Source: Rariglobus hedericola (lineage in GTDB: Bacteria; Verrucomicrobiota; Verrucomicrobiia; Opitutales; Opitutaceae). From it: DNA of 64,000 nucleotides. The notes under the pieces were generated by a model. It searched no databases. It was not told the origin of the DNA and saw only the letters and a program-made list of their open reading frames with translations. The position numbers and the translations under genes are program-made. This document shows, piece after piece, positions 23,140 to 53,104 of the stretch. Position 1 is the first letter of the stretch. Each line of letters opens with the position of its first letter. The stretch is taken from the NCBI RefSeq assembly GCF_007559335.1, contig NZ_VMBG01000001.1, positions 930,001-994,000 on the forward strand, read 5' to 3'.

Positions 23140-23151
23140 GGGACCGGTCCC
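23140..23151. promoter_or_regulatory. Operator-like palindrome GGGACCGGTCCC (site 1)
   Basis: A perfect 12-bp palindrome, 90 bp upstream of the SGNH hydrolase ATG at 23242. It is one of ten GGGAC-NN-GTCCC sites in intergenic sequence of this region. The 428-bp gap it lies in (22814-23241) holds the preceding terminator and no gene I can support. Confidence 0.7.
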
Positions 23152-23241
23152 TTACAGCGGCGATTGAAATGCCCGACACAACCGAAAGTGATGACTTATG
23201 GCCCGATACACAGTGTTCCAGCAGACAATTCAGTTCTCCAA

Positions 23242-23886
23242 ATGAAAACGGTTTTGGAAAACGGTCAGAAAATCATCTTTATCGGCGACAGTATCACTGA
23301 TGCCGGTCGCCAGCAGGAGGCTCCCCCGCTGGGCCGTGGTTATGTCCGTCTGTTCGCGGATTTGCTCACCATCCGGGAGCCCGATAAAACCATCACTGTC
23401 GTCAATCGCGGCATAGGCGGTAACACGACCGACGATCTCCGCAGCCGGTGGGACGAAGACGTCCTTCAGCAACGTCCCGACTGGCTGTGCGTCAAAATCG
23501 GCATAAACGACCTTAACCGCCACCTGACGGACCCCAAGTATGCCTTCCTCGACCTAGCGGCCTACCGCGACATCTATGACCAAGTGCTGACGTTGACCCG
23601 CGCACATCTCCCCGCGTGTCACATTCTACTGATCTCACCTTTTTACATGAGCCGCGACCAGACGCCGCATTCCTACCGCGCAAAAATTCTGGGGCAGTTG
23701 CCAGCCTACATCGAGGTCGTCGAGGAACTCAGTCGGAAACACGCGACACGTTTCCTCAATCTGCATGCAGTGTTCCAAAGCCATCTTCGGCATCGGCACA
23801 CCGACTCCTTCGGCACCGAGCCAGTCCATCCCCATGCAACCGGCGCGCTCTTGATTGCCGAGGAAGTTTATCGCGCGCTCAACTGA
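23242..23886 (+). CDS. SGNH/GDSL hydrolase (carbohydrate esterase candidate)
   Basis: From the ATG at 23242 (MKTVLENGQKIIFIGDSITD) the protein has 214 residues. The SGNH blocks are present: GDSITD (nucleophile Ser), NRGIGGNTT (Gly), KIGINDL (Asn) and a C-terminal EPVHPHATG with the catalytic His, where the usual Asp of the DxxH motif is Glu. No signal peptide. Such enzymes remove acyl groups from polysaccharides or oligosaccharides. The GH116 gene starts 39 bp downstream, so they are probably co-transcribed. A longer frame from 23032 includes the operator and is unlikely to be translated. Confidence 0.87.
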   Translation: MKTVLENGQKIIFIGDSITDAGRQQEAPPLGRGYVRLFADLLTIREPDKTITVVNRGIGGNTTDDLRSRWDEDVLQQRPDWLCVKIGINDLNRHLTDPKYAFLDLAAYRDIYDQVLTLTRAHLPACHILLISPFYMSRDQTPHSYRAKILGQLPAYIEVVEELSRKHATRFLNLHAVFQSHLRHRHTDSFGTEPVHPHATGALLIAEEVYRALN

Positions 23887-23925
23887 TCTTCCCCGCACGC
23901 CTCCCGTCTCTTTCTGGCTTTTCCC

Positions 23926-26481
23926 ATGACGCTCGTTACCTCCATGCATCGCTCCCAACTGCCGCGCTCCGGTCTTGCCCTCGGTGGCATCGGAACCGGG
24001 TCATTCGAAATCCGCCAGGACGGAAGTTTCCAAAATTGGAGCATTTTCAACAATAACCCCGTCTTCGCTGGCGCACCCTATCCGCACAACCCGAAGGAGA
24101 CGCTTTTCTTCAAGCTCTGGGTTCGCGTTGAAAATGAAAACCCGCGCATGGTCCTGCTTCAGATTGAGGACAGCCACAATGCCGGCGCCATTGAACGCCA
24201 GTTCCAGTATATTTTCCCCTGGCTCTCGGGGGTGGACGTCATTCGCACGACCGCCAGCTTCCCGTTTGCCGACCTCGAGTTCGAGCAAGACGGACTACCG
24301 CTTCGCGTGTCACTGCGCGCATGGTCCCCCTTCATCCCCGGCAATCTCAAGGACTCCGCCCTTCCCTTGGTGTATTTCGATTTCGAGATCAGGTCGATCG
24401 GTGATCGCCCGGTGGACGTGCAAGTGCTCGCCGTCATGCGCAACGCCGTCGCCTACGACCAGCCGCAGCGCATCTACGTCAACCGCCGTGTGCGCGACGG
24501 CGCGTTCTCCGCGGTCGTTTGCGAGGCGGAGCAGACCAATCCCTCCGCCTCCACCACCGGCGCGCTCTGCCTCGCGTCCTTCTCGGACCGGTCCACCGCC
24601 TACATGGGCTGGGAACACAATCATCCGTATTACGAACGGTGTCTTCGTGAGTATCCGATTTCCGAATACGATGACACCGCCGGTCGCAACAATGTCGACA
24701 AGGCCACCGGCGCGCGTCGCGCCGATCCGCGTTGCTTCGTGACCATTGGCACCCATGCCACGTTGCGCGACTCCAGCGACATCTTCCGACACACCTTCGC
24801 GCTCTCCTGGCACTTCCCCAACAATTATGCCAAAGGCAATCAGGCCCTCGCCGCAGGCTACCTCGAAGACGCTTCCTTTCCGGGCCACACCGGCAGCACC
24901 GCGCCCGCCGCCGCGACCACCGAAAAACGCCCTCGTCCGCTGGAGGGGCATTTCTATGCCACTCACTTTAACTCCGCGGAGTCCGTCGCCCGCTACGCCA
25001 TGCAGGAACGCGCGCGACTCCTCTCCGAATCCACCGCATTTCACCGGACGTTCTTCGACAGTTCGTTGCCGACGTTTGTTCTCGACCAGATCAACTCCCA
25101 CCTGAACACGCTGCACACCAGCACCTGGCTCACCCCCACCGGAATGTTCGGCGTCTTGGAAGGCCTTAGCCCGACTCGCTCGTTTGCCGGCATCGCCACC
25201 ACCGATGTCGCCATGTATGGTCAGATCGCCGTCAGTCTCCTCTTTCCCGAGCTCGATCGTATAACCATCGATCTCTGGACCAAATTTCAAAATCCCAACG
25301 GCTCCGTCATCCACTCGGTCTGCTGCGATTCCACCACCGCCAGTCCAAGCGAGGCCACCGGTCACCGTCTCGACATGCCGGCCCAATACGTGTTCATGGC
25401 CCTCCGTGCGGCCGTGTGGTCAGGGGATCGCCGCTACCAGGAAAAGCTCTGGCCTCACGTAAAGGCGGCGCTCGCCTACGTCCTGCGCGAACGCGACAAA
25501 AACGGCGACCACCTCCCCGACATGGAGGGCGTGATGTGCTCCTACGACAACTTTCCCATGTTCGGGGTGGCTCCCTATGTCGTCTCCCAATGGCTCGCAG
25601 CAATTGCCGCTGCCCTCATGGTGGCTCGCCGGCTCGGTGACGCCGCGTTCATCTCCGAATATGCCGCGTATTTCGACCAAGGCTGCGCCACCTTGGAAAA
25701 AACCACCTGGAACGGCCGCTACTTCAATCTCTCCTCCGACGTCCGCCCCGAAGATCCCACCGCCCATCTCGGCTGTCTCGCGGATCAAATAATCGGTGAC
25801 GGCGTGATACGTCAGCTCGGGCTCCCTTCGATTATCGATCCTGCAAAGACGACGACCGCCCTGCGCACGATCCTTGAGATGAATTACAAAGCCGACCAGG
25901 GCCTGCGCAACTGCCAGTGGCCCGGCGACACCTTCCTTCACGAAGTCACTTCCAACTGCTGGGTCGATCAGGCCAACACGTGCTGGACCGGCGTCGAACT
26001 CAACTTCGCCGCCCAGCTCTACTACGCCGGGTTTAACGAAAGCGCCGAGGAGATAATCCGCAACGTCGATGTCCGCCACCGCCGCTGGGGCATGTATTGG
26101 GATCACCAAGAGTTCGGCGGCCATTACTTCCGGCCGCTCTCCGCGCTCGCAATTCCGAATGCATATCTGGGTCTATCCTACGACGGAGAAACCCTTCGCA
26201 TCGCGCCCGCGCGACCGCTTCCCATCGGCCGCTGGTGTGCGCTCTTGCCCGGTGCCACCGCGACCCTGTTCAAAACTCATGACGGCGTCCGCCTTGAGTT
26301 CAGGATCGGCTCGGTGCCTCTGACTTGTCTCGAGTTCGCCTGCGGTTCCTCCGGCACGCCTTCGCTCCGTGGGACCGAAGTCCGCCCTCTTGCTCACACC
26401 TCGGAAAATGAAGTCTGCCGCCTGATGTTCGTCCCGGGCACACGGCTCGCGGCGGGTGCCGTGATCGAGATCACATCCTGA
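23926..26481 (+). CDS. GH116-family glycoside hydrolase (GBA2-like)
   Basis: This 851-residue protein has the N-terminal beta-sandwich of non-lysosomal glucosylceramidase-like enzymes (GLALGGIGTGSFEIRQDGSF, WSIFNNNPVF) and a C-terminal (alpha/alpha)6 barrel. The segment SYDNFPMFGVAPYVVSQW at about residue 540 corresponds to the family's catalytic acid Asp motif. GH116 enzymes hydrolyse beta-glucosides, beta-xylosides and related substrates. There is no signal peptide, so it probably acts on imported oligosaccharides. It lies between an esterase and a sugar symporter. Confidence 0.87.
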   Translation: MTLVTSMHRSQLPRSGLALGGIGTGSFEIRQDGSFQNWSIFNNNPVFAGAPYPHNPKETLFFKLWVRVENENPRMVLLQIEDSHNAGAIERQFQYIFPWLSGVDVIRTTASFPFADLEFEQDGLPLRVSLRAWSPFIPGNLKDSALPLVYFDFEIRSIGDRPVDVQVLAVMRNAVAYDQPQRIYVNRRVRDGAFSAVVCEAEQTNPSASTTGALCLASFSDRSTAYMGWEHNHPYYERCLREYPISEYDDTAGRNNVDKATGARRADPRCFVTIGTHATLRDSSDIFRHTFALSWHFPNNYAKGNQALAAGYLEDASFPGHTGSTAPAAATTEKRPRPLEGHFYATHFNSAESVARYAMQERARLLSESTAFHRTFFDSSLPTFVLDQINSHLNTLHTSTWLTPTGMFGVLEGLSPTRSFAGIATTDVAMYGQIAVSLLFPELDRITIDLWTKFQNPNGSVIHSVCCDSTTASPSEATGHRLDMPAQYVFMALRAAVWSGDRRYQEKLWPHVKAALAYVLRERDKNGDHLPDMEGVMCSYDNFPMFGVAPYVVSQWLAAIAAALMVARRLGDAAFISEYAAYFDQGCATLEKTTWNGRYFNLSSDVRPEDPTAHLGCLADQIIGDGVIRQLGLPSIIDPAKTTTALRTILEMNYKADQGLRNCQWPGDTFLHEVTSNCWVDQANTCWTGVELNFAAQLYYAGFNESAEEIIRNVDVRHRRWGMYWDHQEFGGHYFRPLSALAIPNAYLGLSYDGETLRIAPARPLPIGRWCALLPGATATLFKTHDGVRLEFRIGSVPLTCLEFACGSSGTPSLRGTEVRPLAHTSENEVCRLMFVPGTRLAAGAVIEITS

Positions 26482-26510: not shown

Positions 26511-26538
26511 CGGTTTCGGGACCGATCCCTAAACCGGC
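26511..26538. promoter_or_regulatory. Operator-like palindrome (site 2) in an extended 28-bp dyad
   Basis: The core GGGACCGATCCC (26518-26529) is nested in a near-perfect 28-bp palindrome whose outer arms are CCGGTTT and AAACCGG. It lies 63 or 81 bp upstream of the two possible symporter starts. Confidence 0.7.
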
Positions 26539-26592
26539 GGATTGTGCGCCCGAGAAAGGCTTGGACACTGTTTCTTTCGCCTGCGTCCCGGC

Positions 26593-28354: not shown

Positions 28355-28366
28355 GGGACCGTTCCC
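28355..28366. promoter_or_regulatory. Operator-like palindrome GGGACCGTTCCC (site 3)
   Basis: It matches the GGGAC-NN-GTCCC pattern with one change, in the context TTTCGGGACCGTTCCCGC, 99 bp upstream of the GH78 start at 28466. Confidence 0.65.
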
Positions 28367-28465
28367 GCAGCAGGCCCATTGCGGAGTGATTTGCCTGTCT
28401 CACGCTTATTCCTGTTCCGCAGGCCCCTGACGCTTTCCTCGTCTCGGCTCCGACGGTCCGCACTT

Positions 28466-31246
28466 ATGTCGAAGTTTCTCGAATATCCCGCCGCGCTTCG
28501 CACCGCCTCCCCCTTCTCACAGGCGGCGTATTGCTGGGTCGCCAATTTCCCCCCGGGCCGCAACCAATTCGTAAGCTTTGAGCGACGCTTCAGGATCTCC
28601 ACGCGGGGAGCGGCCACGTTGCATCTTTTTGCGGATACGCGCTACCGCCTGTTCATCAATGAACGCTTTGTCGCGTATGGTCCCGGACGTTTTATCACCA
28701 CTCACCCCGAGTTCGATACCTATGCGCTCGGCGACTACCTTCAGCCCGGGGAGAATCTCATCCGCGTGGAGGTTAATTATTACGGCTGCCCCTCCTTCCA
28801 GACCATGCCCGATGGGCTGCCCGGTTTCATTGCCGACGGAGGCACCGCCGATGGCCAAGAAACGTTTGAGACTCCTGGCGAATGGCTCTCACGCATCCAT
28901 CGTGCATGGAGTTCGGACGCACCTCATTTTAGTTTCGCCCAAAATCCCTCCGAAATTTGTGACACCCGGGTTTTGGCGGCCGAACTCTCGAACGAAGAGC
29001 TGCTACCGGTTGTCCCGCTCGGACCCGCGTCCACCCCATGGGGAAAACTCGTCCCCCGCAGCGCTCCCTATCCCGACTACATGCTCCGCCGCCCCAAAAA
29101 CCTGCTGGTCGCCGGTCCTTTGATGCAGACAGAGCGTTGGGGCCTGCAATTGCTCCATCCGGCTTTTTCCCGCAAGGACCGATCCACCCATCCCCGCTAC
29201 GTTGCCTTCATCACATGGATCCATTCTTACGAAGAACAAATCGCGACGATGGATTGTTTCTGGTCCGAACTCTTTCTCAACGGGCAGCCGCTCGAGCTTA
29301 GAGAGCCCGGCATGTTGGGTAATCACCGTGAAGCGACCCTCTCGCTTCGCAAGGGATGGAACTTTCTTGCCGGCAATGTCGAACTCCTCACGAGCCATTG
29401 GCCGCTCCTGCTTGGTTTTCCCTCCTGTGCGCAGATTTCGTTGCATGCGAAACCGGATCTCTCCTGTGACGAAGCCTTCGGCCTTTCGCCAATTCTGACC
29501 GCCCGCTTCGTCGCGTCTTGCCCGTCCGGGCCGGGAGCTTTCCGGGCGATCCCGGGATGGAGCAACGCGCGGAACGATCTCCTTTCGGTGACCCCTGCGC
29601 GCCTAGTCGCCTGGGACCAGCCCGCCCCCTCCGCCGTGCAGCGCGACATCCCCATCGGACGCTTCGCCGAGGTCGCAAGCATCACGGCACGCGCGGCGGT
29701 CTGGTCCTTCGATTTCGCGTTGGAGTATTATGGCCATGCGCTCATCGAGGTGGAGGCGCCCGCCGGCACAATTCTCGATATCGCCTATGATGACTGGCGG
29801 CGCGTCGACGGGTGCGTGAACCTGTATCACTCCAACCCCTACACCGATACGACGGATCGCTTCATCCTTCGTGGAGGGCGCCAGCAGGTGGAGGTGCTTA
29901 ATCCGCGCGGGGGGATTTTTCTCCAAGTCATCCTGCGTGCCCCTGTCACGACCGGTGCCACGCACCTTGCGGTTCACAACGTCGGCATCCGTCGCCGCAC
30001 GACCATCAACACGCTGGCGGGCGACTTCAGATGCGGTCACGAGGTTCTTGACTGGACCTGGCGCACCTCGATCCAGACCCTACAGGCCTCCACCGACGAA
30101 GCCTATGCCGATTGCCCTTGGCGCGAACGCGGCAGTTACATCGGCGATACCCTCGTCAACCTGCACCTCCACCGGCTTGTCTCCGCCGATCTGTCCGTGG
30201 CACGACGGACGCTTTCCCTGTTTGGAAATACCCAGCGCCCCGACGGTCTCGTGATGAGCTGCGCACCGTCGTGGCTCGATCACGATCACGGTGACTTTTC
30301 TTTGATCTGGGTTCAGGCGGTCCGCGATTTTTGGGCTCTCACGGGTGACCTCGCCTTTGCGGCCACCCAATGGCCCGTCATTGAACGCATCCTGAACAGT
30401 CCTGCTTGGAAGCCCGATGCTGACAACCTTTGGAGCGCCACTGATCGCCACATTTTCATGGACTGGGGAGCGCTCCATTCCGAACGCGTCGGTCCGGCCA
30501 ACACCTACCTCAACATCATGCGCGTCGCCGCCCATCGGGCCGCGGCCGAACTGGCGGGCGTCTTGAACCTGCCATCTGCGGTGTTGCGCCACGGACGTGA
30601 AGCCGCCGCGGTTTCACGAACTCTCTCCCTTCGTCTTTGGGACGATAAAGAAGGGAGTTTTTTTGCCAGCCGCGGCGCCACCACCCCCGCGATCCACGCC
30701 AATGTCATGGCTCTTCGCCATGGCATCGGGCCGGCCGATCGGATTCTCGCCTACCTCGAGCCGAAGCTGCGTGCCAACTTCACCGTCGGTTGCGGATCCG
30801 CACACCACAATGGTTTCGTTGAACTCTATTTTTTCCACTACCTGCTTCCCGCCCTCGCCCTACATTCGCGCTACGATCTGGCAGAATCATTGATCGAGGA
30901 GACCTACGGGTTTCTTAAATCGCTTGGCTATCAAACCCTCGTCGAATGCTTCCATCGTGCTTCTCAACGCAAGGGAAGTTGCTGCCATAGCTGGAGCGGC
31001 TCGCCTGCCGTGTATGCAAGCACGTTTATCCTCGGCCTTCGTCAGACCCAACCCGGGAAACCCGATGCGTTCACGCTTGATCCCGTGTCGTCGGCTCACC
31101 ATTCCGCGCAAGGAGTGCTGCCGCACACACGCGGCTCGATTCGTCTTCGCTGGGAACGACGCGGCGATCGCATTCACGCCCGGGCCACACTTCCTCCAGG
31201 GGTAACACTTGCGCCCGCAGCGCATGTCGATCTGACCATCGACTGA
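28466..31246 (+). CDS. GH78-type alpha-L-rhamnosidase
   Basis: From the ATG at 28466 (MSKFLEYPAALRTASPFSQ) the protein has 926 residues. The N-terminal beta domains contain ADTRYRLFINERFVAYGPG, typical of bacterial alpha-L-rhamnosidases. The (alpha/alpha)6 catalytic domain carries ADCPWRERGSYIGDTLVN, which corresponds to the family motif with the general-acid Glu. It releases terminal rhamnose from plant or algal glycans or glycosides. No signal peptide is visible, so it is probably cytosolic and coupled to the symporter upstream. Confidence 0.87.
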   Translation: MSKFLEYPAALRTASPFSQAAYCWVANFPPGRNQFVSFERRFRISTRGAATLHLFADTRYRLFINERFVAYGPGRFITTHPEFDTYALGDYLQPGENLIRVEVNYYGCPSFQTMPDGLPGFIADGGTADGQETFETPGEWLSRIHRAWSSDAPHFSFAQNPSEICDTRVLAAELSNEELLPVVPLGPASTPWGKLVPRSAPYPDYMLRRPKNLLVAGPLMQTERWGLQLLHPAFSRKDRSTHPRYVAFITWIHSYEEQIATMDCFWSELFLNGQPLELREPGMLGNHREATLSLRKGWNFLAGNVELLTSHWPLLLGFPSCAQISLHAKPDLSCDEAFGLSPILTARFVASCPSGPGAFRAIPGWSNARNDLLSVTPARLVAWDQPAPSAVQRDIPIGRFAEVASITARAAVWSFDFALEYYGHALIEVEAPAGTILDIAYDDWRRVDGCVNLYHSNPYTDTTDRFILRGGRQQVEVLNPRGGIFLQVILRAPVTTGATHLAVHNVGIRRRTTINTLAGDFRCGHEVLDWTWRTSIQTLQASTDEAYADCPWRERGSYIGDTLVNLHLHRLVSADLSVARRTLSLFGNTQRPDGLVMSCAPSWLDHDHGDFSLIWVQAVRDFWALTGDLAFAATQWPVIERILNSPAWKPDADNLWSATDRHIFMDWGALHSERVGPANTYLNIMRVAAHRAAAELAGVLNLPSAVLRHGREAAAVSRTLSLRLWDDKEGSFFASRGATTPAIHANVMALRHGIGPADRILAYLEPKLRANFTVGCGSAHHNGFVELYFFHYLLPALALHSRYDLAESLIEETYGFLKSLGYQTLVECFHRASQRKGSCCHSWSGSPAVYASTFILGLRQTQPGKPDAFTLDPVSSAHHSAQGVLPHTRGSIRLRWERRGDRIHARATLPPGVTLAPAAHVDLTID

Positions 31247-31270
31247 ACTCTAGACATCTTTGCACTTATC

Positions 31271-31282
31271 GGGACTGGTCCC
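31271..31282. promoter_or_regulatory. Operator-like palindrome GGGACTGGTCCC (site 4)
   Basis: The context TCGGGACTGGTCCCGA is a 16-bp dyad, 90 bp upstream of the start at 31373. A further half-like phrase TTCGGGTCCG follows at 31286. Confidence 0.7.
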
Positions 31283-31372
31283 GATTCGGGTCCGTTGAAG
31301 CCCACGGGGAATGGACAACTCTTTCCGTGCTTCAGTTTTCCATTCCGCCCCGCCGCAGAACCCCGCTTCCCC

Positions 31373-34300
31373 ATGGCCGTCCTTGCCCAGTCCTTGCTTG
31401 TGCGCTTCCTCGCAGCCTCGCTGCTCATCGCCAGCAGCGGGCTCTCTCTTCTTTCGCCAGTCTCCGCCGCTACTTGGCCCCCGGCCGCCAGTTCATACGA
31501 CCAAGCCGTGCCGATGGAAGCGACCGTGACGGACGTTCCGCCGTCCATAGCCCTGAAATTTTCGCGCGCGGGAGCCTACACGATCTATCGTAAAGCCGCC
31601 AACGTCACCACGTGGGGTGCGGCGCTGGCCACTTTGCCTGCCAATTCGACGTCCTGGACCGACACCGCCGTGAGCACGGGTGTGCTCTACGAATACAAAG
31701 CCGTGCTCTCCGGAGCCAACACAGGAGTTTATTGGTCAAACAGCGCGCCGGTGGGCCACATCCTCAGCGGCATCAAAGTCGATGAGACCCAGCCGCGCGG
31801 ACGCGTCGTCCTCGTGGTCACGAGCGATGTGCAAGCCGCCCTTCCAACCGAACTCGCCCAATTCAAATCCGACTTCGTGGCCGATGGCTGGACCGTTCAC
31901 GAGATCTCCTGCACGCGCGTCGCCAAGTATGACGCGTATGGCGTCGACACCAATGGCGATGGTGTGGCCGACAGCGGTTTCCCCGCCGACCACATCGCCC
32001 TCCGCAACCAGATCATCGCGCTCTACAACGCGTATCCGGGCGAAGTTAAAAATGTCATCATCCTAGGGCGCGCCCCCGTCGCGCGCACCGGCATCGCCGG
32101 TATCAATCCCGACGGACATGGTGATCGTTGCACGCTCTCCGCCGACGCCTATTACGCCGATGTGAATGGCACTTGGACCGACACCGGCAACAATTTTGCC
32201 AACACCACCAACAGTATCAATAGACCGGGTGACAACCGGTTTGATCCGATCAACACTACTCAGACTGGACCCGTGGAGATGGGATTCGGCCGCATCGACC
32301 TGTCGAATAGCATCGTCTTCGAATACGCCGCCCTTCGCACCTATCTCCAGAAGCTGCATCGCTACAAAACGGCCAGCGCCGATTTTCAACCCGGCCGCAA
32401 GATCGCGATCCGCGACGGATATTCCAACGTTGACGAGACCGGCTGGTCCACCGGGCCCGCCGTTTCTGGATTGGTCAACGTGGATGCATTTAATCGGACC
32501 GATCTGCCTCTACCCGTTTCCGGTAATGATGCCGACCAAGCCTACTCGGCTCTCCATGGCCCCTATTTGTTTTACTTTAAAGGCGATGGCGCGCCGGCTT
32601 TCTCGCCCGGCGGCAAGGCAGTGTTCGTGACCGGTATGCAGAGTAATTGGGGCTATTGGTGGGAGACCCAAAACGCCATGCAGACGCAGCTCAGCGAGGA
32701 CAATTTCACGCTCAGCGTAACTTGGAGTATCTGGGGCGTCCGTTATTTTTATCACCGCATGGCGATGGGATTGGATGCCGGTGACATGATGCGCATGAGC
32801 ATCAACAACACTTCGCCCGTGACCGGAACCTACCAATGGGCCACCGACACATATGGCAACGGAGATTACTCCGGCTCGCTCTTCATGTCGCACATGGGCG
32901 ATCCCACGCTTCGTCTATTCATGTTTGAACCGCCTTCCGATCTCGCGATCCGCAAGAACAACAATGCCCCCTTGCTGACATGGTCCGCTTCTCCCGCCAC
33001 GGGCGTCATCGGCTATCATGTTTATCGAGCTTCGACCGCCGCCGGGCCATTTGTGCGCATCACATCCTCTCCTGTCGCCGCCACCCAATTTGTGGATTCA
33101 ACCACAGCCACGGGCCCGGTGAGTTACATGGTCCGCGCCGTGCGCCTCGAAACCTCCGCCTCGGGCAGTTTCTACAACGCCAGCCTCGGTGCAGTCAGCT
33201 CAATCGATTTTGATGCGACACCCGCTGCGCTGCAGGTCCCAGGGACCACATTGCCTGACGCCCGCTGCGCCCAGGCTTATTCCGTCGCTCTTCCGGTGAC
33301 GGGCGGAATCCCCGCCTACACGTGGACGCTCATCAGCGGCACCCTGCCGCAAGGCCTCACGCTCATCAGCAATGGCACGATTTCCGGCACACCCGTGCGC
33401 CAGGAAACCACCACTTTTATCGTCCGGGTCACCGATCTCGTCAACGTCTCTGCCGACCAGACCTACACCATCAACACGCTCTCCGAGCAGACGCTCGTGG
33501 TGCCGGCCACCATCAGCGCAGCCACCGTCTCCACATCCACCGGCACCAACTACAGTGGGTCCGACTCATTCCTCGTGAATAATCAGCGAGATGCCTACGT
33601 CCGCTTTGATCTGTCCACCGTGCCTTCCCGCAATGTGTATCTCCGTGCCCGGTTACGGCTCTTTGCTTCGCCGAGCACGGCCAATGGATATCCGTTTCTG
33701 GAAGCGGCGCTGCTCAGTGACAGCGACGATACGATGGCCGAAAACACGATCACCTACAGCCACTCTCCCGCCGTCAACGATGCCTTCATCACAGTCAGGA
33801 CCGATACCCTTCCAACTCCCGGCGGGTATGTGGACATCGATGTGACGCCCCTTTTCCAAGAGACCCTCGCCAACGATCCCGCCCGTATTCTTGGACTGAA
33901 AATCTTCACCAAGACTGCGAACCAATCGCTCACGGTCGGTAGCCGACGCGCATTTGGCGATAACCAGGTGAGGCTCATCCTAGACGTCACCGACGCGCCC
34001 AAGATCACGATGACCAGCCCCGCCTCCGGGGCGGCATTCGCCCGCCCCGGCACGGGCTTGCAACTCCAGGCAAATATTAGCCCACTTTCGCCACGCACCG
34101 CCTCGCTTACTTGGTCGCAGGTGGCCGGCCCTGGCACGATCACTCTGGGCACCCCCGCCGCAGCGACGACCACGGCCACCTTTTCCACCCAAGGCGACTA
34201 CACGCTCCGGCTTTATGCGGACGACGGCACATTGCGCTCGTCACGAGATATCGTCGTGCGCGTCTTCGATTCGACAGTGAAGGGACCGGTGTCCGGCCTG

Positions 34301-40805: not shown

Positions 40806-40898
40806 GGGGGGGGTAAAAGTGGGAGTCCTGCACGCAAAAGGCGTATCGGTTCCTGCCAGCAATTCACTGCCGCGCCAGGCTCGCAAATCCTCCGTTTC

Positions 40899-40909
40899 GG
40901 GACCGTCCC
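40899..40909. promoter_or_regulatory. Operator-like palindrome GGGACCGTCCC (site 5)
   Basis: An 11-bp variant of the repeated palindrome with one central base fewer, in the context TTTCGGGACCGTCCCGTTT. It lies 94 bp upstream of the minus-strand start at 40805, in the divergent region 40806-41089. Confidence 0.65.
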
Positions 40910-40943
40910 GTTTTAGCTTTTTCAGAGGCCCGCCGTTGTGTTG

Positions 40944-40955
40944 GGGACTGGTCCC
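40944..40955. promoter_or_regulatory. Operator-like palindrome GGGACTGGTCCC (site 6)
   Basis: Identical core to site 4; 134 bp upstream of the YdjC-family start at 41090 and 45 bp from site 5 start to start. The pair could serve the two divergent promoters. Confidence 0.7.
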
Positions 40956-41089
40956 GCCTGCATGAAATTGAGATCAGCGTTAAAGCCAGCCCCAATGTGC
41001 CCGCCCTCTTCTATGCCGGCCTAGGCCGGGCGGGACCTGCGCAAAAAAACGTCACGCACCTCGTCCGCATTCTTCCTTCAGATTTTTCC

Positions 41090-41869
41090 ATGAGCACACC
41101 TCCCACCAAACGCCTGCTGATTCGCCTCGATGACGCCGGTCTCAATCTCGATACCAACCGAGGGATCGAAGCCGCCGCCCGCACCGGCCCCGGTCGCTCC
41201 GTGGGCATCATGGCCTGCACGCCCGCTTTTGAAGACGCCGCCCGCCGGTTGCGCAACCTGCCCCGCCTCGCGATCGGTGTTCACCTGACGCTCAACTCCG
41301 AATGGACCAACCTCCGTTGGGGTCCCGTTCTTCCCGCTTCAGACGTTCCCTCATTGGTCGATGAAGAGGGATTCCTTCCCCTGAATCACCAACTCTACCG
41401 CAACCGCCCCCCGGTCATTGCCGAAGTCATCGCAGAGCTTCGTGCGCAAATTGCGGCGGTGCGCGCCGCCGGCCTCAAGCCTTGCTACGCCGACGAACAC
41501 ATGGTGTTCGCCTCGATCAGCCCGCAACTGGCCCAACCTATTCGTGAACTGCTCTCCGATGAGGGCCTGTTTTATGCCCGTGACGCTCGCCTACTCACTT
41601 TCAAGCCGGAGGACAGACCCGCCGGATCGCGGATGTCCGCTTGGTGCCAGGCACTCCACGCCGCGGCGCCTGGCGACTATCTCTTGGTTACTCACCCTGC
41701 CTGTGCAGGTGAGGAACTCGCTGGCCTCACCCTGCCCGGTAAACCACCGGGAGAAGCCGCCCTGTCACGTATCGACGAATACACTGCGCTATCGGATCCG
41801 GAACTGGCGCAGGGCCTGACCACGGCAGACGTGCGCCCCATCACTTACCGGGACTTACAACAGGCTTGA
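41090..41869 (+). CDS. YdjC/ChbG-family carbohydrate deacetylase
   Basis: From the ATG at 41090 (MSTPPTKRLLIRLDDAGLN) the protein has 259 residues. The metal-binding Asp pair is in RLDDAGLN, a conserved His in IGVHLTLN, another in YADEHMVF and a third in LVTHPAC. The usual NADDFG and DxHxH forms are altered here (LDDAG, DEHMV). The family removes acetyl groups from N-acetylated oligosaccharides such as diacetylchitobiose; the substrate here is not known. Confidence 0.85.
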   Translation: MSTPPTKRLLIRLDDAGLNLDTNRGIEAAARTGPGRSVGIMACTPAFEDAARRLRNLPRLAIGVHLTLNSEWTNLRWGPVLPASDVPSLVDEEGFLPLNHQLYRNRPPVIAEVIAELRAQIAAVRAAGLKPCYADEHMVFASISPQLAQPIRELLSDEGLFYARDARLLTFKPEDRPAGSRMSAWCQALHAAAPGDYLLVTHPACAGEELAGLTLPGKPPGEAALSRIDEYTALSDPELAQGLTTADVRPITYRDLQQA

Positions 41870-41989
41870 GACTATAAGGGCTGATCCGGTTAGCGTTTTC
41901 CGGGCATGGACAAGATACCCGTGCTACGGCCACAAGCATCCTGCCAGTGAGAGCCTGTTCAATGCCAAGTGCCTTAGGGCTAGAAAATC

Positions 41990-42001
41990 GGGACAGGTCC
42001 C
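41990..42001. promoter_or_regulatory. Operator-like palindrome GGGACAGGTCCC (site 7)
   Basis: The context TCGGGACAGGTCCCGA is a 16-bp dyad lying 102 bp upstream of the LacI-family start at 42104, which points to autoregulation. Confidence 0.72.
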
Positions 42002-42103
42002 GAAGTCATTCGTTTGCACTCACAGGTCCTTGGGTCGCCCTTTTAAAAGGTAACGCCAAGCCCATCATTGTCACATCGCCATCGCTTCGTCTTTATATTC
42101 CCC

Positions 42104-43123
42104 GTGTCTGACGCCCCTACCATCCGTGACCTTGCAGATAAACTGGGACTTGGAAAATCCACCGTGCAGCGTGCTCTCGCGGGGCTTTCAGGTATCTCTC
42201 CCGCCACCGCCAGGCGGGTGCAGGCGGTGGCCGCGGAAATGGGCTATCGCCCCGATCCACTTTTCTCCTCGCTCGCTATGCAGCGTTCCCGGTCTCGGCG
42301 GCACACCTTGGAGATCGCCTACCTTCGTAGCTCCAATGCTCGGGGCGGTCTCAACCCCTTCGAACAGGTAAAAGCCCACGCATTCCCCCTCGGTTATGAT
42401 GTCCAGATGATCGACCCGGAGGCTCTGGGTGTCGGCAAACGCCTGATGAAGGTGCTTTATCATCGCGGCAATGTCGGTGTCATTGTTGCACCGGTTAATC
42501 CCTCATGCCATGAGGCCATTCTGGCCAATACCCAGCTGCCGGTGGTGTGTTGCGGACGGATCGACCCGCTTCCCCTGCACACGGTGCAACCCGATATCAC
42601 CGATCATGTGCGCGTGGTCTGGCGACACATCCGCGCGGCCGGTTATTCCCGAATAGGCCCCGCCATCGCCCAGCATACGCCCGCCGTTGAAGACGATATA
42701 GACCGCCTCGGTGCGGTTCTCGCCTGCCAGCTGGAGCTGCGCACAAAAGATCGCATCCCTCCGCTGCTCACCCCGCTTCCCGATCACGCTTCTCTCGTCG
42801 CGTGGTTCCGCCGACACAAGCCCGACGCCATCTTGGGTTTTTCAGCCGGGCAATATTATGCCCTCAAGCAAGCGGGCATCGACATGTCCCGGATCGGCTT
42901 CGCCTCTCTGCATGCCTCGCACGACGTCTACACCGTTAACATAGCCGGCACCGAGGAGCTCAATGACTCGGTCGCCCAAGAGGCAGTGCATCTCTTGGAT
43001 CAATTCATCCGACGCCGCGCCGTCGGCCTGCCTCGCGAGCCCCTGCATCTGCTGATACCCGGCCGTTGGAAACCGGGCTCGAGTCTGCCCAACAAGGCCC
43101 GACGTAACCTCGCGTCCGCATAA
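42104..43123 (+). CDS. LacI-family regulator, candidate controller of the GGGAC-NN-GTCCC regulon
   Basis: From the GTG at 42104 (PTIRDLADKLGLGKSTVQR next) the protein has 339 residues: an N-terminal HTH (about residues 5-25), a hinge RPDPLFSSLAMQR and a sugar-binding effector domain (VGVIVAPVNPS, DAILGFSAGQYYAL, IPGRWKPG at the end). The hinge differs from the standard AARxL form, seen in the other LacI gene of the window. A copy of the repeated palindrome precedes the gene, and nine others precede genes on both sides, so this is the most likely regulator of the set. That link is inference. Confidence 0.88.
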   Translation: MSDAPTIRDLADKLGLGKSTVQRALAGLSGISPATARRVQAVAAEMGYRPDPLFSSLAMQRSRSRRHTLEIAYLRSSNARGGLNPFEQVKAHAFPLGYDVQMIDPEALGVGKRLMKVLYHRGNVGVIVAPVNPSCHEAILANTQLPVVCCGRIDPLPLHTVQPDITDHVRVVWRHIRAAGYSRIGPAIAQHTPAVEDDIDRLGAVLACQLELRTKDRIPPLLTPLPDHASLVAWFRRHKPDAILGFSAGQYYALKQAGIDMSRIGFASLHASHDVYTVNIAGTEELNDSVAQEAVHLLDQFIRRRAVGLPREPLHLLIPGRWKPGSSLPNKARRNLASA

Positions 43124-43154
43124 TTTCTCAAGCTTGCCGGAGTCCCTGCCACGA

Positions 43155-43166
43155 GGGACAGGTCCC
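43155..43166. promoter_or_regulatory. Operator-like palindrome GGGACAGGTCCC (site 8)
   Basis: Same core as site 7, 154 bp upstream of the giant prepilin-like gene at 43321. A half-like phrase GTTGTCCCGCC follows at 43179. Confidence 0.68.
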
Positions 43167-43320
43167 GAATTGTGGCGGTTGTCCCGCCTGATGTTCTCTC
43201 CTGAAGTAGCGGGGTTTTACCACCCTTGCCACCCCGGCGCGCCCAGCCAGTTCTGGCTGTGTGCGTGAACCCGAGCAATCCGCCTCCGCCCCTGCCCTCT
43301 GCCTTACGCCGGACCTTTTC

Positions 43321-46300
43321 ATGAGTCTCCCCCCCGCCGCGCCCTTCCCCTCTGGTCACACCGTTACGCGCAAGCGCGGACAACAAGGCTTCGCGCTGCT
43401 GATTACTATCACCCTTCTGTCGTTTCTGGTGCTGCTGCTCGTGTCACTGGCGAGTCTCACGCGAGTGGAAACCCAAGTGGCGAGCAACAGCATTCAACTC
43501 GCACAGGCCCGCCAGAATGCCCTCATGGGCCTCCAGATCGCCCTCGGTGAATTGCAGAAACATGCCGGCCCCGACCAGCGGGTGACCGCGCCGGCGACCG
43601 CTGTGTATCCAAAAAAAGATGTCACCACCGCCACGGGGGAACTCTTCGACAAATACCGCGCACGCGCCGTCACTGCCGCGCACAATACCTACCTCACTCC
43701 TGCTGAACGTATCAATTGGGAAACAGACCTGCGCGCGTGGTGGAACACCGGCAATCGCAATCCTTATTGGACTGCCGTTTTCGACAGCAGCCTGCGCCGT
43801 GACGGCCAGACAAGCTCCAGTCAATACGGGGAGCCGAAGCGCAACCAACTTCCGGTATGGCTCGTCAGCGGCAACGAGCGCCTTGGCTTCAATCCGCGAA
43901 TCGACACGACCTATCCCACGGGTTACTTCACGCCTGACGTGGACGTGGCCACCCTCGCGCCCACGGCCGACGACATCATCAAACTCGTCGACAAGACCGG
44001 CCCCGCCGCAGCTGATTCGGTGGACGGCATGAGCGGACGTGTGCAGGTGGTCCGCCAGCCGGTCAGCGATCCCTCCAACAACACGCTCGGCCACTACGCG
44101 TATTGGGTGGCGGACGAAAGCACCAAGGCCAACTTCTCGGTCCGTGACCCTTATTTCAACAACAACGACCCAACCTCCGTAGATTATCGCAACCGGCTCC
44201 AAGTGCCCCAGCGCGTCGGCTGGGAGAGGATAACGGGTTTCGATACCTCGGGCAGCACCGTGGCGTTGAACGATCCCGTCTTCGAAAAGGCCCTCGTCCA
44301 CCAACAACTGCAGCTGATCGACCCGAATTTCACTGCGCCCGTCAAAAATAATTTCCACCATCTCACCACCTATTCGCGTAGTATTTTAACGGATACAGTA
44401 ATCGGCGGTCTTAAAAAAGACCTCACCGTCTTCTTCGAAGGCACCGGCGCGGGCATTAATCCAACCGATCCGATATTTGACCGATCGCTCTACGCATCCA
44501 ACGATCCACGCTTCGGCACCTCCAATGCCGGGTTTCCCAAGATCGCCTCCGCAACCAATATCCCAACATGGGGCGAAGCGAAGGAGTGGTTCGACAGCAC
44601 CGCAACCGGCTTCGCGGGGACGGTGCCGGTAACCCGCGGTCGTGCACCAATCCTCGCGAACTTCCAGGTTTTTTATGCGTTCACTCACGAAAATGGCGTG
44701 ATCCAAATGCACATGCTGCCCTGCGTGGTTCTCTGGAACCCGTTTGATGCCGGTCTCTCCTCCACCACCTATCGTCTGAAATGGAGGCACAATTTCGCCT
44801 ATGCCAATTTTGGCGTCGCAACCCAAGGCATGGCCGACCCGACGCCAGCAGACGCCACCGACGGCACGGCCATCACGGATAGCAGCAACGTCAAGCACCT
44901 CGTGCACAAGCTTCAGGGGATGGACTGGTTCGATGGCAGTGCATCCAATTTCAAGACATTTTACGCGAATTTCTCTGCCGCGAATCCATGGAGCTCGATC
45001 ACCGGCCCCGCCTATCGATTTGCCCCTTTTGATCGCGGCCCCTCCGCCGCCGCCAATGCTTACGCACCAGCGCCCTCGGATCCGAACAGCACTTGGGTGA
45101 CCTATGAGTTCACCACTTCGTTCGAAGCGGGACAGGCGAAGATATTCACAGTCGGTTCTTCCCAAAAAGTGAGTGCCTCTGACCTCCATGCAGGCACTCA
45201 GGTCGTGCAACTCCTCAACGACTTCGTTCCTGATTTTCCCGCCTCATACTATTTCGATGTCGCGCGGATTGTTGATCCTTCCGGCACCGGAACGGCCACG
45301 CCGTCGTCCTCCAACACGGTGCGCGTCTATGCCACGCAAAGTCCGATCGCCAGTCCCACCGTCATGTCGATGCAGCTCTCGACCAAAGGCGGCGACCTGC
45401 TCTGGCGCAACGAGTATAACGGAAATCCAGGCAATCCGGCCCACAGCGTCAGAACGAATCCGGGCATGGTTTACGATCAACCGTCCACTTGGCGACTCCT
45501 ACGTGATCGACACCAGTGGGAAATCACACCCAAGGGAACGGTTTCGAGCGGGGATCCCGCATCTGCAGTGATTGGCATAACACGCGGCCGCCTCGAGCCG
45601 TTTTCGGTCAGTCAAAGCAGCTTTTACGGCAGCAGCCAAGGCACCCGTATGCAGGCATCCACCCTCTTTGTGCGTGCGTTTTCGCTCTACAACATTGCCG
45701 CACCGAGTCTCGACCTGAATACCAAACTCGAAGGATCTCGTGCAGGGGCGTCCACAAATAACACCGACAAGTTCTCTCTCCTCCAATTGATGCGAGGTGA
45801 GTCAGGGGAAAAAGCAGCTTGGGACATCGACCAATCTCAAGTCACGGGTGCCGACACCGAAGGGTTTGCGCTTATCTCTTGGACGATTTCGAACGGGCTC
45901 AACAATGACGGGCTCAACCGGCTGCCCCTTCGTCAGGTCAAACGCGCGAGCGCTCGCTTGCTCTCCTTGGGGCAGCTCCAGCAAGCCAATCTGTCTCCCC
46001 TCGCGTGGGAACCTGCATTTCCGGTCGGAAACAGCGAGGCCTCCCCTTACGTCGACCGGGCAAGGATCGCCGGCATTGAATCCTACCCCGTCGGCAGTGC
46101 GACCAGCTCCACATTTTCAGCCGACACCACCTACTATCGCCCGCAGGGCATCTTGCCAAACGACAGCCAAAACCGCGGTCTAGATAACTCTTACCTGCTC
46201 AACGAAAGCCTGTGGGACGGCTACTTCCTCTCTAGCATACCGCAATCAGGCAGCCTCGAACTCGACAACTCTCAGCCGCTCCCTAATTCACGTCATCGTT

Positions 46301-47382
46301 TTTCAAATACCAACGGGCTTACAACGGGCGACGTCCGCGATTTCAACACAGGCGCGGCTTATCTAACCAATATCGGCGCGCTCAACGTCAACTCCACTTC
46401 GGTGGAGGCTTGGAAAGCCCTGCTCATCGCCTTCCGTGGTCTCAGCTACGCATCGGATGACCGCACTGGAGCCGCTGTTGCTGCGGCCATTCCCATTTCA
46501 CGCACGCTTGATCCTCTAGGCGGCAACGTGGAATTCACTTTCTCAGGAAAAAACAACGCGAGCATTGCAGCTGTCTCCACTCATCGGAACTACACCAAGC
46601 TTTTCACCGGATTCCGGTATCTAACGGACAGCATGATCCAGGCGCTTGCCGAACGGATCGTGGACGAAGTGCGTTTGAGAGGCCCATTTTATTCCTTGGG
46701 CGATTTTATCAATCGGCGCTTGGTGGCCCCTGAAGGGGCCTACACGTCCGGATCAACATGGCAGACCGCTCGCACCAGTAATCAAAACCCCGCTTATGCC
46801 ACAGATGGTGTTCACACCTACGGCAACGGCGGCGGTTCGGCTTACAATTCCTTTGTCGGTCTTGCGGGCCTCAATGGCGCTTTGCAACGAGCTATCAATG
46901 TTTCCGGCATCAACGGCGGTATCAATTATCCAATCTCGCCCGTCGATAATAACGACCGGGTTTTCCGTTTCGAGCTCGATCCCACCAAGCTCAACAATGC
47001 CACCAACATCCCAATGGAGGTTCTGCCGCAGGTAGGTCACTATCTCGATACCGAGCACTTGGCCGGCGCCCCTATCGGTGAGGCGGGATCACTCATGTCA
47101 CATGCCCCCGGCTTTGTTACCCAAGCCGATATTCTTTCGATGATTGGCCCGGCCCTCACCGCCCGTGGGGACACCTTTCTCATTCGCACCTACGGCGATA
47201 CCCTCAACCCTGCCACCGGTGAAGTCACCGGACGGGCGTGGCTTGAGGCGGTCGTTCAACGCACCGTTACCCCGGTTACCCCGGCTGCCGTCACCGGAGC
47301 CGACCGGTTCAAACCTAACGACGCATTCGGACGACGCTTTGTCGTCGTTTCAATGCGCTGGCTCTCGCCCGAAGATCTCTGA
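43321..47382 (+). CDS. Giant prepilin-like protein, resembling Verru_Chthon cassette protein A
   Basis: From the ATG at 43321 the protein has 1353 residues. It starts with a short basic leader and a type IV prepilin-like segment: KRGQQGFALLITITLLSFL, with Gly-Phe at the processing point but no Glu at position 5, then a long hydrophobic helix and TRVETQVASNSIQLAQARQN. The large extracellular part is mostly beta-strands and coil (including YWVADESTKANFSVRDPY). The N-terminus and length match Verru_Chthon cassette protein A as I know it. It may be a component of a pseudopilus-like surface structure used in glycan binding. It forms an operon with the 247-residue secreted protein downstream. Confidence 0.75.
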   Translation: MSLPPAAPFPSGHTVTRKRGQQGFALLITITLLSFLVLLLVSLASLTRVETQVASNSIQLAQARQNALMGLQIALGELQKHAGPDQRVTAPATAVYPKKDVTTATGELFDKYRARAVTAAHNTYLTPAERINWETDLRAWWNTGNRNPYWTAVFDSSLRRDGQTSSSQYGEPKRNQLPVWLVSGNERLGFNPRIDTTYPTGYFTPDVDVATLAPTADDIIKLVDKTGPAAADSVDGMSGRVQVVRQPVSDPSNNTLGHYAYWVADESTKANFSVRDPYFNNNDPTSVDYRNRLQVPQRVGWERITGFDTSGSTVALNDPVFEKALVHQQLQLIDPNFTAPVKNNFHHLTTYSRSILTDTVIGGLKKDLTVFFEGTGAGINPTDPIFDRSLYASNDPRFGTSNAGFPKIASATNIPTWGEAKEWFDSTATGFAGTVPVTRGRAPILANFQVFYAFTHENGVIQMHMLPCVVLWNPFDAGLSSTTYRLKWRHNFAYANFGVATQGMADPTPADATDGTAITDSSNVKHLVHKLQGMDWFDGSASNFKTFYANFSAANPWSSITGPAYRFAPFDRGPSAAANAYAPAPSDPNSTWVTYEFTTSFEAGQAKIFTVGSSQKVSASDLHAGTQVVQLLNDFVPDFPASYYFDVARIVDPSGTGTATPSSSNTVRVYATQSPIASPTVMSMQLSTKGGDLLWRNEYNGNPGNPAHSVRTNPGMVYDQPSTWRLLRDRHQWEITPKGTVSSGDPASAVIGITRGRLEPFSVSQSSFYGSSQGTRMQASTLFVRAFSLYNIAAPSLDLNTKLEGSRAGASTNNTDKFSLLQLMRGESGEKAAWDIDQSQVTGADTEGFALISWTISNGLNNDGLNRLPLRQVKRASARLLSLGQLQQANLSPLAWEPAFPVGNSEASPYVDRARIAGIESYPVGSATSSTFSADTTYYRPQGILPNDSQNRGLDNSYLLNESLWDGYFLSSIPQSGSLELDNSQPLPNSRHRFSNTNGLTTGDVRDFNTGAAYLTNIGALNVNSTSVEAWKALLIAFRGLSYASDDRTGAAVAAAIPISRTLDPLGGNVEFTFSGKNNASIAAVSTHRNYTKLFTGFRYLTDSMIQALAERIVDEVRLRGPFYSLGDFINRRLVAPEGAYTSGSTWQTARTSNQNPAYATDGVHTYGNGGGSAYNSFVGLAGLNGALQRAINVSGINGGINYPISPVDNNDRVFRFELDPTKLNNATNIPMEVLPQVGHYLDTEHLAGAPIGEAGSLMSHAPGFVTQADILSMIGPALTARGDTFLIRTYGDTLNPATGEVTGRAWLEAVVQRTVTPVTPAAVTGADRFKPNDAFGRRFVVVSMRWLSPEDL

Positions 47383-51688: not shown

Positions 51689-51722
51689 GCCCCCGGCGCC
51701 CACCCGCGCCGGGGGCTTTTTT
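51689..51722 (+). terminator. Strong rho-independent terminator
   Basis: A perfect 11-bp GC stem (51689-51699 GCCCCCGGCGC, 51706-51716 GCGCCGGGGGC), loop CCACCC, followed by T6. It ends the run of genes from 43321. Confidence 0.92.
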
Positions 51723-52070: not shown

Positions 52071-52096
52071 AAGGCGCCGCATGCATGCGGCGCCTT
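52071..52096. terminator. Perfect 26-bp palindrome, probable terminator of the PEP-CTERM gene
   Basis: AAGGCGCCGCATG followed by its reverse complement gives a perfect hairpin. On the minus strand it lies about 50 bp after the stop of the gene ending at 52147 and is followed by TTTGTCGTTT, a weak T-tract. Confidence 0.7.
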
Positions 52097-52146
52097 CACT
52101 TAATCGGGCTTATATATAGTAGCTGGAATCTTTAGAGCGGGTGCGA

Positions 52147-52965: not shown

Positions 52966-53072
52966 GTGATTATGGGGCGGAACCGGGCTAACGAAGGTGA
53001 AGCCCGATTGGACACTCGGATTACCTGATAACCATTCATCGACCAGTAAGCGGAGAACAACGGCCCCAATTC

Positions 53073-53084
53073 GGGACCTGTCCC
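53073..53084. promoter_or_regulatory. Operator-like palindrome GGGACCTGTCCC (site 9)
   Basis: In the context TTCGGGACCTGTCCCGTA, 107 bp upstream of the PEP-CTERM gene start at 52965. It is one of a tandem pair with site 10 (20 bp between starts). Confidence 0.72.
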
Positions 53085-53092
53085 GTATCGGC

Positions 53093-53104
53093 GGGACGGG
53101 TCCC
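53093..53104. promoter_or_regulatory. Operator-like palindrome GGGACGGGTCCC (site 10)
   Basis: Second of the tandem pair, starting exactly 20 bp after site 9 (about two helical turns); 176 bp upstream of the GH125 start at 53281. The divergent region 52966-53280 holds no gene. Confidence 0.7.

Follow-up and report, generated by a model that had tools for sequence, protein, structure and literature searches.

A palindrome at fixed distance from a predicted -35 box marks a glycan-related gene cluster in Rariglobus hedericola that is probably activated by a LacI-type protein

The window, a stretch of 64,000 nucleotides from Rariglobus hedericola, contains a 30-kb cluster whose predicted regulon members are glycosidases, a sugar symporter, esterases, surface proteins and a pseudopilin-like gene, together with a gene for a LacI-family regulator (Table 1). 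A preliminary description of this DNA listed ten copies of the palindrome GGGAC-N(1-2)-GTCCC in the cluster, and we recovered a copy at every one of the ten coordinates, eight of them exact and two (26518 and 28355) with one change. All ten are intergenic as described, provided that translation starts downstream of the element, which the reading frames suggest. The claim that the copies usually lie inside TCGGGAC...GTCCCGA had to be relaxed, because only the copies at 31269 and 41988 have the full TCGGGAC-NN-GTCCCGA form without a change, and two or fewer changes separate eight of the ten sites from it. The even palindrome with a central CG that is expected of LacI operators is not what these sites generally have: the centre is CG in three of the nine 12-bp copies and TG, AG, CT or GG in the others, and one core is 11 bp long.

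Table 1. Composite elements (palindrome, 12 bases, TTG) and two genes of the cluster, in window coordinates.
Feature	Position	Strand	Context
Composite element, GGGACCGGTCCC-N12-TTG	23140..23166	+	Precedes genes for a GDSL esterase, probably starting at 23242, and GH116 (23926-26481)
Composite element, one arm change (GGGACCGATCCC)	26518..26544	+	Precedes gene for an MFS_2 sugar symporter, which begins near 26611 and ends at 28281
Composite element, one arm change (GGGACCGTTCCC)	28355..28381	+	Precedes GH78-like alpha-L-rhamnosidase (about 28466-31246)
Composite element	31271..31297	+	Precedes gene (about 31373-35647) whose large product contains Laminin_G_3, PKD and Ig-like domains
Composite element, 11-bp core (GGGACGGTCCC)	40884..40909	-	Precedes 38046-about 40805 (unclassified protein), probably also the DUF4886 and AXE1 genes behind it
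Composite element	40944..40970	+	Precedes YdjC-like gene (about 41090-41869); divergent with 40899
Composite element	41990..42016	+	Precedes LacI gene (putative autoregulation)
LacI-family regulator	42104..43123	+	Recognition helix GKSTVQRA; predicted binder of all ten sites
Composite element	43155..43181	+	Precedes 1373-aa frame and genes behind it
Large protein, Verru_Chthon A / GspK-like N-terminus (below curated cut-offs)	43321..47382	+	Element precedes homologues in genomes G252 and G214
Composite element	53058..53084	-	Precedes gene running from about 52965 to 52147; by eye the product ends in a PEP-CTERM-like C-terminus, which scores below the family cut-off
Composite element	53093..53119	+	Precedes GH125 (53281-54648) and GH28-like gene (54672-56033)

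Exact GGGAC-N(1-3)-GTCCC occurs eight times in the window against an expectation of 0.27, a count reached by none of 100 shuffles, and it is absent from the region 1-21 kb, as first reported. Eight of the 13 exact palindromes in the 4.15-Mb genome fall inside the 30-kb cluster (7 of 10 for the 12-bp form and 1 of 3 for the 11-bp form). Four of the five outside copies lie within coding-looking frames and the fifth (C1:505081) within a less certain frame of 233 aa; none of them has TTG at 12 bases on either side.

In all ten window copies the palindrome is followed by exactly 12 bases and then TTG, towards the gene that it precedes, which sets the site upstream of a candidate -35 box at one preferred distance. 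The next best TTG offset occurs twice among the ten. The spacing is kept with 11-bp cores. Exact GGGACNNGTCCC-N12-TTG elements number seven genome-wide, and all seven are in the cluster. The preliminary description had named a genome scan as a check on the motif, and our scan, in which patterns with mismatches were used instead of a weight matrix, came out in its favour at the level of exact composites; with up to two mismatches, the genome-wide count was 61 versus 67 for a reversed-pattern control, which is no excess. Because the sites at 40899 and 53073 face the minus strand, 40899/40944 and 53073/53093 would form divergent promoter pairs. TTG opens a mechanical open reading frame in four of the ten copies and is in frame in a fifth, and we considered and rejected it as a start codon: it is out of frame at 40944, 43155, 53073 and 53093, and at 41990 it is cut off by a stop. 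The preliminary description makes no mention of the 12-bp spacing and picked its sites without knowledge of it.

The TTG behaves as a -35 box in that a weak -10 signal lies at the right distance. Across 35 elements from six genomes, all chosen to have TTG and none chosen for a -10 box, the score obtained with approximate E. coli -10 weights peaks exactly at the spacing set by TTG (mean 1.07 versus -1.00 +/- 0.48 for shuffled sequences; 0 of 5000 shuffles as good), and T occupies +28 in 20 of the 35 (p = 7e-6), although sites that share a genome or are orthologous cannot be counted as fully independent. Two members of this set, from locus L108, carry two arm changes, and two one-mismatch hits in LW23 are omitted from it (L221 5327 and L222 5051, the latter inside a gene). 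Among 27 exact palindromes from 16 loci, several of which were fetched because they matched the composite, TTG stands at 12 in 21, and the next best offset is found in four. The six exceptions are L216 18968, L063 6488, L107 4990 and three intragenic G000 sites. One palindrome in G210 and one in G214 have TTG at 12 on both sides.

It is highly improbable that the palindromes are non-regulatory, whether dispersed repeats, REP elements or short terminators. Multi-copy matches of the repeat kind do exist. Of 387 genomes sampled from the phylum, 15 contain exact composites, and only G000 (7), G542 (11), G581 (6) and G262 (2) contain at least two; the G542 and G581 copies are dispersed repeats whose flanks are conserved, and the flanks of the two G262 copies do not resemble each other. 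Two of the four palindromes in the scanned stretch 40860-43300 are also listed as terminator-like. However, in the window and its relatives the spacers and flanks differ between copies and the two arms and TTG alone are kept, every one of the ten window sites faces a gene start, and a centre of 2 bases between arms of 5-6 bp is ill suited to hairpin formation.

We considered which protein binds the sites. The product of 42104-43123 has an N-terminal LacI helix-turn-helix (PF00356, 34.3 bits versus a cut-off of 27), and a Pfam search of this protein gave no sensor domain match. Its AlphaFold2 model (mean pLDDT 84.9, with the hinge at residues 52-62 below 50) matches full-length CelR, LacI, PurR and CcpA (Foldseek probability 1.00, TM about 0.5-0.6), and the modelled C-terminal part corresponds to a periplasmic-binding-protein-like sensor domain. 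As is usual for local LacI sugar regulons, the regulator is encoded beside its own sugar genes. Co-occurrence with the sites and a shared recognition helix make this protein, already named as a candidate in the preliminary description, the best-supported putative binder. It is distinctly unlikely that another protein fills the role, such as the AraC-type regulator (58514-59473), the other LacI protein (20395-21438) or a regulator encoded elsewhere. Both of these genes are near the cluster, and the elements of LW23 do not adjoin its GKSTVQRA LacI gene, being on other contigs, with no site in 21 kb around that gene. The AraC-type gene, however, has no counterpart (E<=1e-3) in 10 of the 11 relative loci searched, and its single match, in L216, covers 68 residues of the DNA-binding end only, at 32%. 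The other LacI protein has a different helix, GLGTVSRA, with a classical CG-centred palindrome between its gene and the next, and the element is present in six of the seven species with the GKSTVQRA type.

Genomes in which the element recurs together with a GKSTVQRA LacI protein are those of Co_bin.226, LW23, two species belonging to the window's genus and Kiritimatiellaeota B1221 (counted with G338, which has the same helix and the same 11-bp site); in G114 the helix is present and no clear site was found. In a scan of LacI loci, for which the helix peptide itself was one of two seeds and 80 of 340 relatives were kept, GKSTVQRA occurs in 6 of the 80. The six helix loci hold seven exact palindromes (centres of 1-2 bp), five with TTG at 12, in L116 and L121, versus two exact palindromes and none with TTG at 12 in the 74 other loci. 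The contrast weakens when one mismatch is allowed, with a TTG-at-12 palindrome in one of six helix loci (L117) versus three of 74 others (L122, L164 and L186). Within the family, where LacI relatives at E=1e-40 or stronger were inspected for the helix, at least two exact composites occur in two of the four genomes with the GKSTVQRA type versus none of 248 others (p = 2e-4). LacI matches at E<=1e-50 were found in three of the 387 phylum genomes (G000, G338 and G573); that of G573 has the helix SKTTAHRA, with no site in 4 kb.

The preliminary description had also proposed comparing orthologous promoters, and the sites do recur before corresponding genes in relatives with the same LacI type. In G252 the element precedes the MFS_2 symporter, the GH78-like gene and homologues of the 946-aa and 1373-aa genes, and the imperfect arms at the MFS and GH78 genes and the 11-bp core at the 946-aa gene are common to G252 and the window species. 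Ahead of its LacI gene, G252 has a palindrome with TTG at 7 and none at 12. LW23 has four exact composites (rough P about 7e-6). Around its LacI gene, G214 has variant sites, GGGTCAG(A/C)TCCC-N12-TTG, and the GGGAC sites on another G214 contig could therefore belong to a second regulator; the G210 cluster contains a second LacI gene, with the helix GKSTVARA. Together, the genome scan and the recurrence in relatives favor the original reading of a single-factor glycan regulon, and the joint occurrence of palindrome and LacI type suggests that one sugar-sensing protein turns on a surface and enzyme programme.

Local LacI sugar regulons in RegPrecise, in the part of the survey used here, have palindromic sites upstream of gene starts, are commonly autoregulated and usually serve one carbohydrate pathway, with 31% controlling one operon and 38% two (PMC4052901). 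The window departs from this pattern in its ten element-bearing promoters, which would represent about ten operons, its degenerate centre of 1-2 bp and its fixed link to the -35 box. Published motifs have a CG centre in 1173 of 1303 cases and a degenerate centre in 29 of 1303, with 4% odd, so that CG appears typical and not obligatory for LacI operators in the same part of the survey (PMC4052901).

The sites, their spacing and orientation, the -10 signal, the recurrence with the same LacI helix and the predicted LacI fold were computed directly; the identity of the binding protein, activation, the effector and the substrate are inferred. We propose, with a probability of about 0.6, that the ten palindromes are operators of one local regulon, bound by a dimer of the 42104-43123 LacI protein that activates about ten operons from a fixed distance to the -35 box. 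The dimer would recognize GGGAC-N(1-2)-GTCCC through its GKSTVQRA helix, and the operator would be tied to the promoter in the order inner arm, 12 bp, TTG of the -35 box and weak -10 box at 16-19 bp. Centred near -53.5, the bound dimer would lie clear of the core promoter on one fixed face, and activation by contact with RNA polymerase is therefore likely, as with CcpA at cre boxes upstream of -35. DNA binding would presumably depend on a sugar derived from a glycan, and the operons switched on together would provide glycan debranching, deacetylation, uptake and surface display as well as the LacI protein itself.

Most characterised LacI proteins are repressors, and the same protein and regulon could work by repression, with the upstream operator occupied in the absence of sugar, polymerase blocked by contact or wrapping, for example, and sugar causing release. 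In G252, the palindrome ahead of the LacI gene, which is nearer to its TTG (7 bp), might be a copy that serves repression. Autoregulation and palindromic sites also fit the local LacI regulons described in part of the survey (PMC4052901), and at the lev operon CcpA is described, in the portion of the report used here, as a repressor that acts from an upstream cre and interferes with a different activator (PMC3463425). We nevertheless consider repression rather unlikely. A repressor has no need of the rigid 12-bp link, which persists where the core is 11 bp long and on either side of palindromes that are shared, the operators overlap neither the -35 nor the -10 box, and the -10 boxes are weak, as expected where promoters need help. 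The fixed link thus argues for activation rather than classical repression.

Activation by LacI-family proteins has precedents. The window palindrome differs from the motif of Cra/FruR, a LacI-family protein of enteric bacteria that controls central carbon flow globally, unlike the local regulon proposed here. Its known dual action, both repressing and activating (PMC4052901, in part), is the point of likeness. In Bacillus subtilis (ackA, pta and ilvB), cre sites upstream of the -35 box are generally associated with activation and the helix face matters, according to the part of the report cited (PMC3463425). The window regulator would resemble CcpA in its family and in the position of its site. 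CcpA itself is a global regulator that relies on a partner phosphoprotein and acts mainly as a repressor, with lev an exception to the rule, whereas the window has a local regulon and ten sites of identical geometry.

The proposal offers a simple rule, visible in the sequence, for the circumstances in which a LacI protein is expected to activate. It also provides a directly testable regulator, operator, promoter geometry and gene list in a phylum, Verrucomicrobiota, that is not among the seven named in the part of the large LacI survey used here (PMC4052901). A loose first look gave 45 LacI-like candidates in this one genome. The rule does not extend to LacI palindromes in general: perfect palindromes of several sizes in genic and intergenic DNA of 75 LacI loci (L121-L195) gave no clear TTG peak at 12 (for half-site 5 and centre 2, 57 at d=12, mean 47.9, best 63 at d=1), and a 12-locus test gave no repeated arms besides the GGGAC sites. 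A tentative extension, possible rather than probable, is that Verrucomicrobiota and Kiritimatiellota have a subgroup of LacI proteins that are dedicated activators and read a fixed promoter code made up of palindrome, 12-bp spacer and -35 box. Anchoring would be through the inner half-site, since the 12 bp are kept with 11-bp cores, and one palindrome could drive two promoters. The code would tie glycosidases to PEP-CTERM surface proteins and Verru_Chthon pseudopilin-like cassettes, marking the cassettes as part of glycan capture.

Shared control of this kind would connect glycan enzymes with PEP-CTERM-like proteins (several of which were called by eye) and with Verru_Chthon genes. The literature searched yielded no paper on Verru_Chthon, none with the motif strings and none joining PEP-CTERM, Verrucomicrobia, glycoside hydrolase and regulon. 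The label "prepilin-like operon" first given to the genes behind 43155 holds for the N-terminus of the 43321 product and not for the rest: this 1373-aa protein alone in the window resembles cassette protein A (TIGR02600), over its N-terminus only and at 23.4 bits, short of the cut-off of 332.3. Verru_Chthon cassettes (TIGR02600, TIGR02598 and TIGR02596) have a closer connection with the element in LW23, where it stands before a full Verru_Chthon A gene (851 bits, TIGR02600), before a prepilin-type gene that has a D gene behind it, and before a B-like gene whose score is under the cut-off.

All ten GGGAC-N(1-2)-GTCCC palindromes claimed in the preliminary description are present in the window at the positions assigned to them, and exact GGGAC-N(1-3)-GTCCC occurs there in 8 copies, compared with 0.27 in shuffles. 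When the ten copies were aligned, each carried a TTG exactly 12 bases past the palindrome on the gene side; the second-best offset has two occurrences. Palindromes 40899 and 53073 are oriented to the minus strand, and therefore each forms back-to-back promoters with its neighbor (Table). A genome scan for the motif, proposed in the same description, found exact copies concentrated in the cluster: the 12-bp palindrome occurs 10 times in the 4.15-Mb genome (7 in the cluster) and the 11-bp form 3 times (1 in the cluster). The five copies outside fall within frames (four coding-looking, one less certain), and a TTG at 12 bases is absent from both sides of all five. Exact GGGACNNGTCCC-N12-TTG elements number seven in the genome, all within 30 kb. 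With up to two mismatches, the composite was found 61 times genome-wide compared with 67 for the reversed pattern, and therefore the signal is carried by the exact and one-mismatch class.

Table. Coordinates of features in the window and in loci from other genomes
Feature	Position	Strand or orientation	Remark
Palindromes	26518; 28355		one arm change each
Palindrome pair	40899/40944	divergent	serves 946-aa gene and YdjC
Palindrome pair	53073/53093	divergent	serves PEP-CTERM-like gene and GH125
946-aa gene	38046-about 40805	minus	
YdjC-like gene	about 41090-41869		
LacI-family gene	42104-43123		helix GKSTVQRA
1373-aa gene	43321-47382	plus	
Second LacI gene	20395-21438	minus	
TGGAAACGCTTCCA	21690-21703		between its two neighboring genes
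PEP-CTERM-like gene	21821-22813		
LW23 exact elements	L218:8961; L219:7346, 7366; L220:8332		
Rariglobus sp. (G214) variant elements	L108:666; L108:4842		
Co_bin.226 inverted repeat	L116:9935-9968		16-base arms
Opitutaceae MAG (G210) second LacI gene	L063:6568-7617	minus	helix GKSTVARA

A start-codon role for the TTG was rejected, as it is out of frame or stop-interrupted in five of the ten copies. For 35 elements, collected from the window and from five further genomes, we scored the sequence that follows the TTG for a -10 box with a spacing of 16-19 bp. The mean score was highest exactly at the TTG position (1.07, compared with -1.00 ± 0.48 when shuffled; 0/5000 as high), and 20 of the 35 elements have T at +28, the final base of a -10 box at 17 bp. 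Based on these sequence features, the TTG is best read as a putative -35 element. Likely start codons lie 69-164 bp past it, seven of ten at 69-95 bp. If transcription starts 35 bp past the TTG, the center of the palindrome would lie at about -53.5. The inner arm stays 12 bp from the TTG in all three 11-bp cores (window, Co_bin.226 and Kiritimatiellaeota B1221), suggesting that the inner subunit of the dimer faces polymerase.

We surveyed 252 genomes of the family and found exact elements in 22: seven in the window's genome, two in G210 and one in each of 20 others. G214, itself one of these 20, gains four elements at one mismatch, all on the 11-kb contig that holds its exact one; G210 gains three, whose TTG is intact, on a contig of 18.7 kb. 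Both genomes also contain individual palindromes with TTG at 12 bases on both sides. The window's genome and these two are the members of the genus that match the window LacI protein at E<=1e-40 (100, 60 and 44% identity). The other 19 element-bearing genomes have single copies, and one of them (G216) belongs to the genus. Separately, multi-copy composite-pattern matches in G542 (L233, L240, L243, L245, L247, L249) and G581 (L237, L242, L244, L246, L248, L250) are dispersed repeats with conserved flanks, not such promoters.

The suggested check for conservation in relatives bore out the sites, because elements recur before corresponding genes in Co_bin.226. The genes that an element precedes there are the homologues of the 946-aa (65%) and 1373-aa (63%) genes, together with genes for a GH78-like enzyme and an alpha/beta hydrolase, an MFS_2 symporter, a PEP-CTERM-like protein and a 266-aa protein. 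Co_bin.226 and the window have in common the imperfect arms at the MFS and GH78 genes, as well as the 11-bp form of the core before the 946-aa gene. The gap between the two divergent sites there is 45 bp in the window and 101 bp in Co_bin.226, and alignment of this region revealed no further long block. In B1221, the gene faced by the element is a homologue (46%) of the window gene at 21821; the window gene itself has no element before it. LW23 has four exact elements. One precedes a full Verru_Chthon A gene, which scores 851 bits, and another a gene of GH78-like type; the remaining two stand before a prepilin-type gene with a Verru_Chthon D gene behind it and before a Verru_Chthon B-type gene scoring below its cut-off. 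These elements provide a lead on the role of Verru_Chthon cassettes.

The recognition helix of the window LacI protein, the candidate binder, contains an unbroken GKSTVQRA that is common to G210, G214 and G114; wherever the helix was inspected in other members of the family that match at E<=1e-40, it differs. In a scan of named genomes, for which the peptide itself was one of two seeds, GKSTVQRA was found in 6 of 80 kept LacI loci (Co_bin.226, G210, LW23, G214, G114 and B1221). Of the seven exact palindromes (1 or 2 bp centers) in these six loci, TTG at 12 accompanies four in Co_bin.226 and one in B1221, five in all, whereas the other 74 loci contain two, neither with TTG at 12. One-mismatch palindromes with TTG at 12 were found in 1/6 and 3/74 loci, respectively. 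Some carriers of the helix depart from this pattern: no clear site was found in G114, and no element near the LW23 LacI gene. Near the G214 LacI gene, GGGTCAG(A/C)TCCC-N12-TTG variants, with geometry kept and arms changed, precede a weakly cellulase-like gene and a GH38 gene. Directly before the Co_bin.226 LacI gene is a perfect inverted repeat with core GGGAC-CT-GTCCC and TTG at 7 bases rather than 12, possibly an autorepressing copy. The G210 cluster also encodes a second LacI protein with a closely similar helix. The sensor domain of the window protein is not recognized by Pfam, but the structure predicted for the protein matches full-length structures of LacI, PurR and CcpA, and its ligand is therefore likely a small sugar.

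We considered how such a protein could act. Repression by LacI bound inside or below a promoter is obstruction, for which a fixed upstream distance is unnecessary. Here the 12 bp between palindrome and -35 are fixed, the -10 boxes are weak and the candidate operator is clear of the core promoter. For the LacI-family protein CcpA, cre boxes upstream of -35 are described as accompanying activation, with helix face determining the effect and the lev operon an exception (PMC3463425). Taking these features with the CcpA rule, we favor activation, in which a LacI dimer upstream near -53.5 would activate the element promoters, with repression through an upstream operator as the main rival reading.

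The cluster enzymes include GH78, GH116, GH125, GH28, AXE1 and YdjC, which suggests that the substrate may be a branched, acetylated heteropolysaccharide containing rhamnose and mannose. Among 1303 LacI proteins with predicted motifs, the survey in PMC4052901 reports CG centers for 1173 and degenerate centers for 29, and the majority control one or two operons. Compared with the regulons as that survey presents them, the window system differs in its degenerate 1-2 bp center, its single block of about ten operons and its rigid linkage to the -35, yet it remains a predicted LacI regulon.

The window also contains one perfect TGGAAACGCTTCCA, the sole exact copy in the genome, which we take to be a classical CG-centered LacI-type operator; it lies between the second LacI gene and a PEP-CTERM-like gene.
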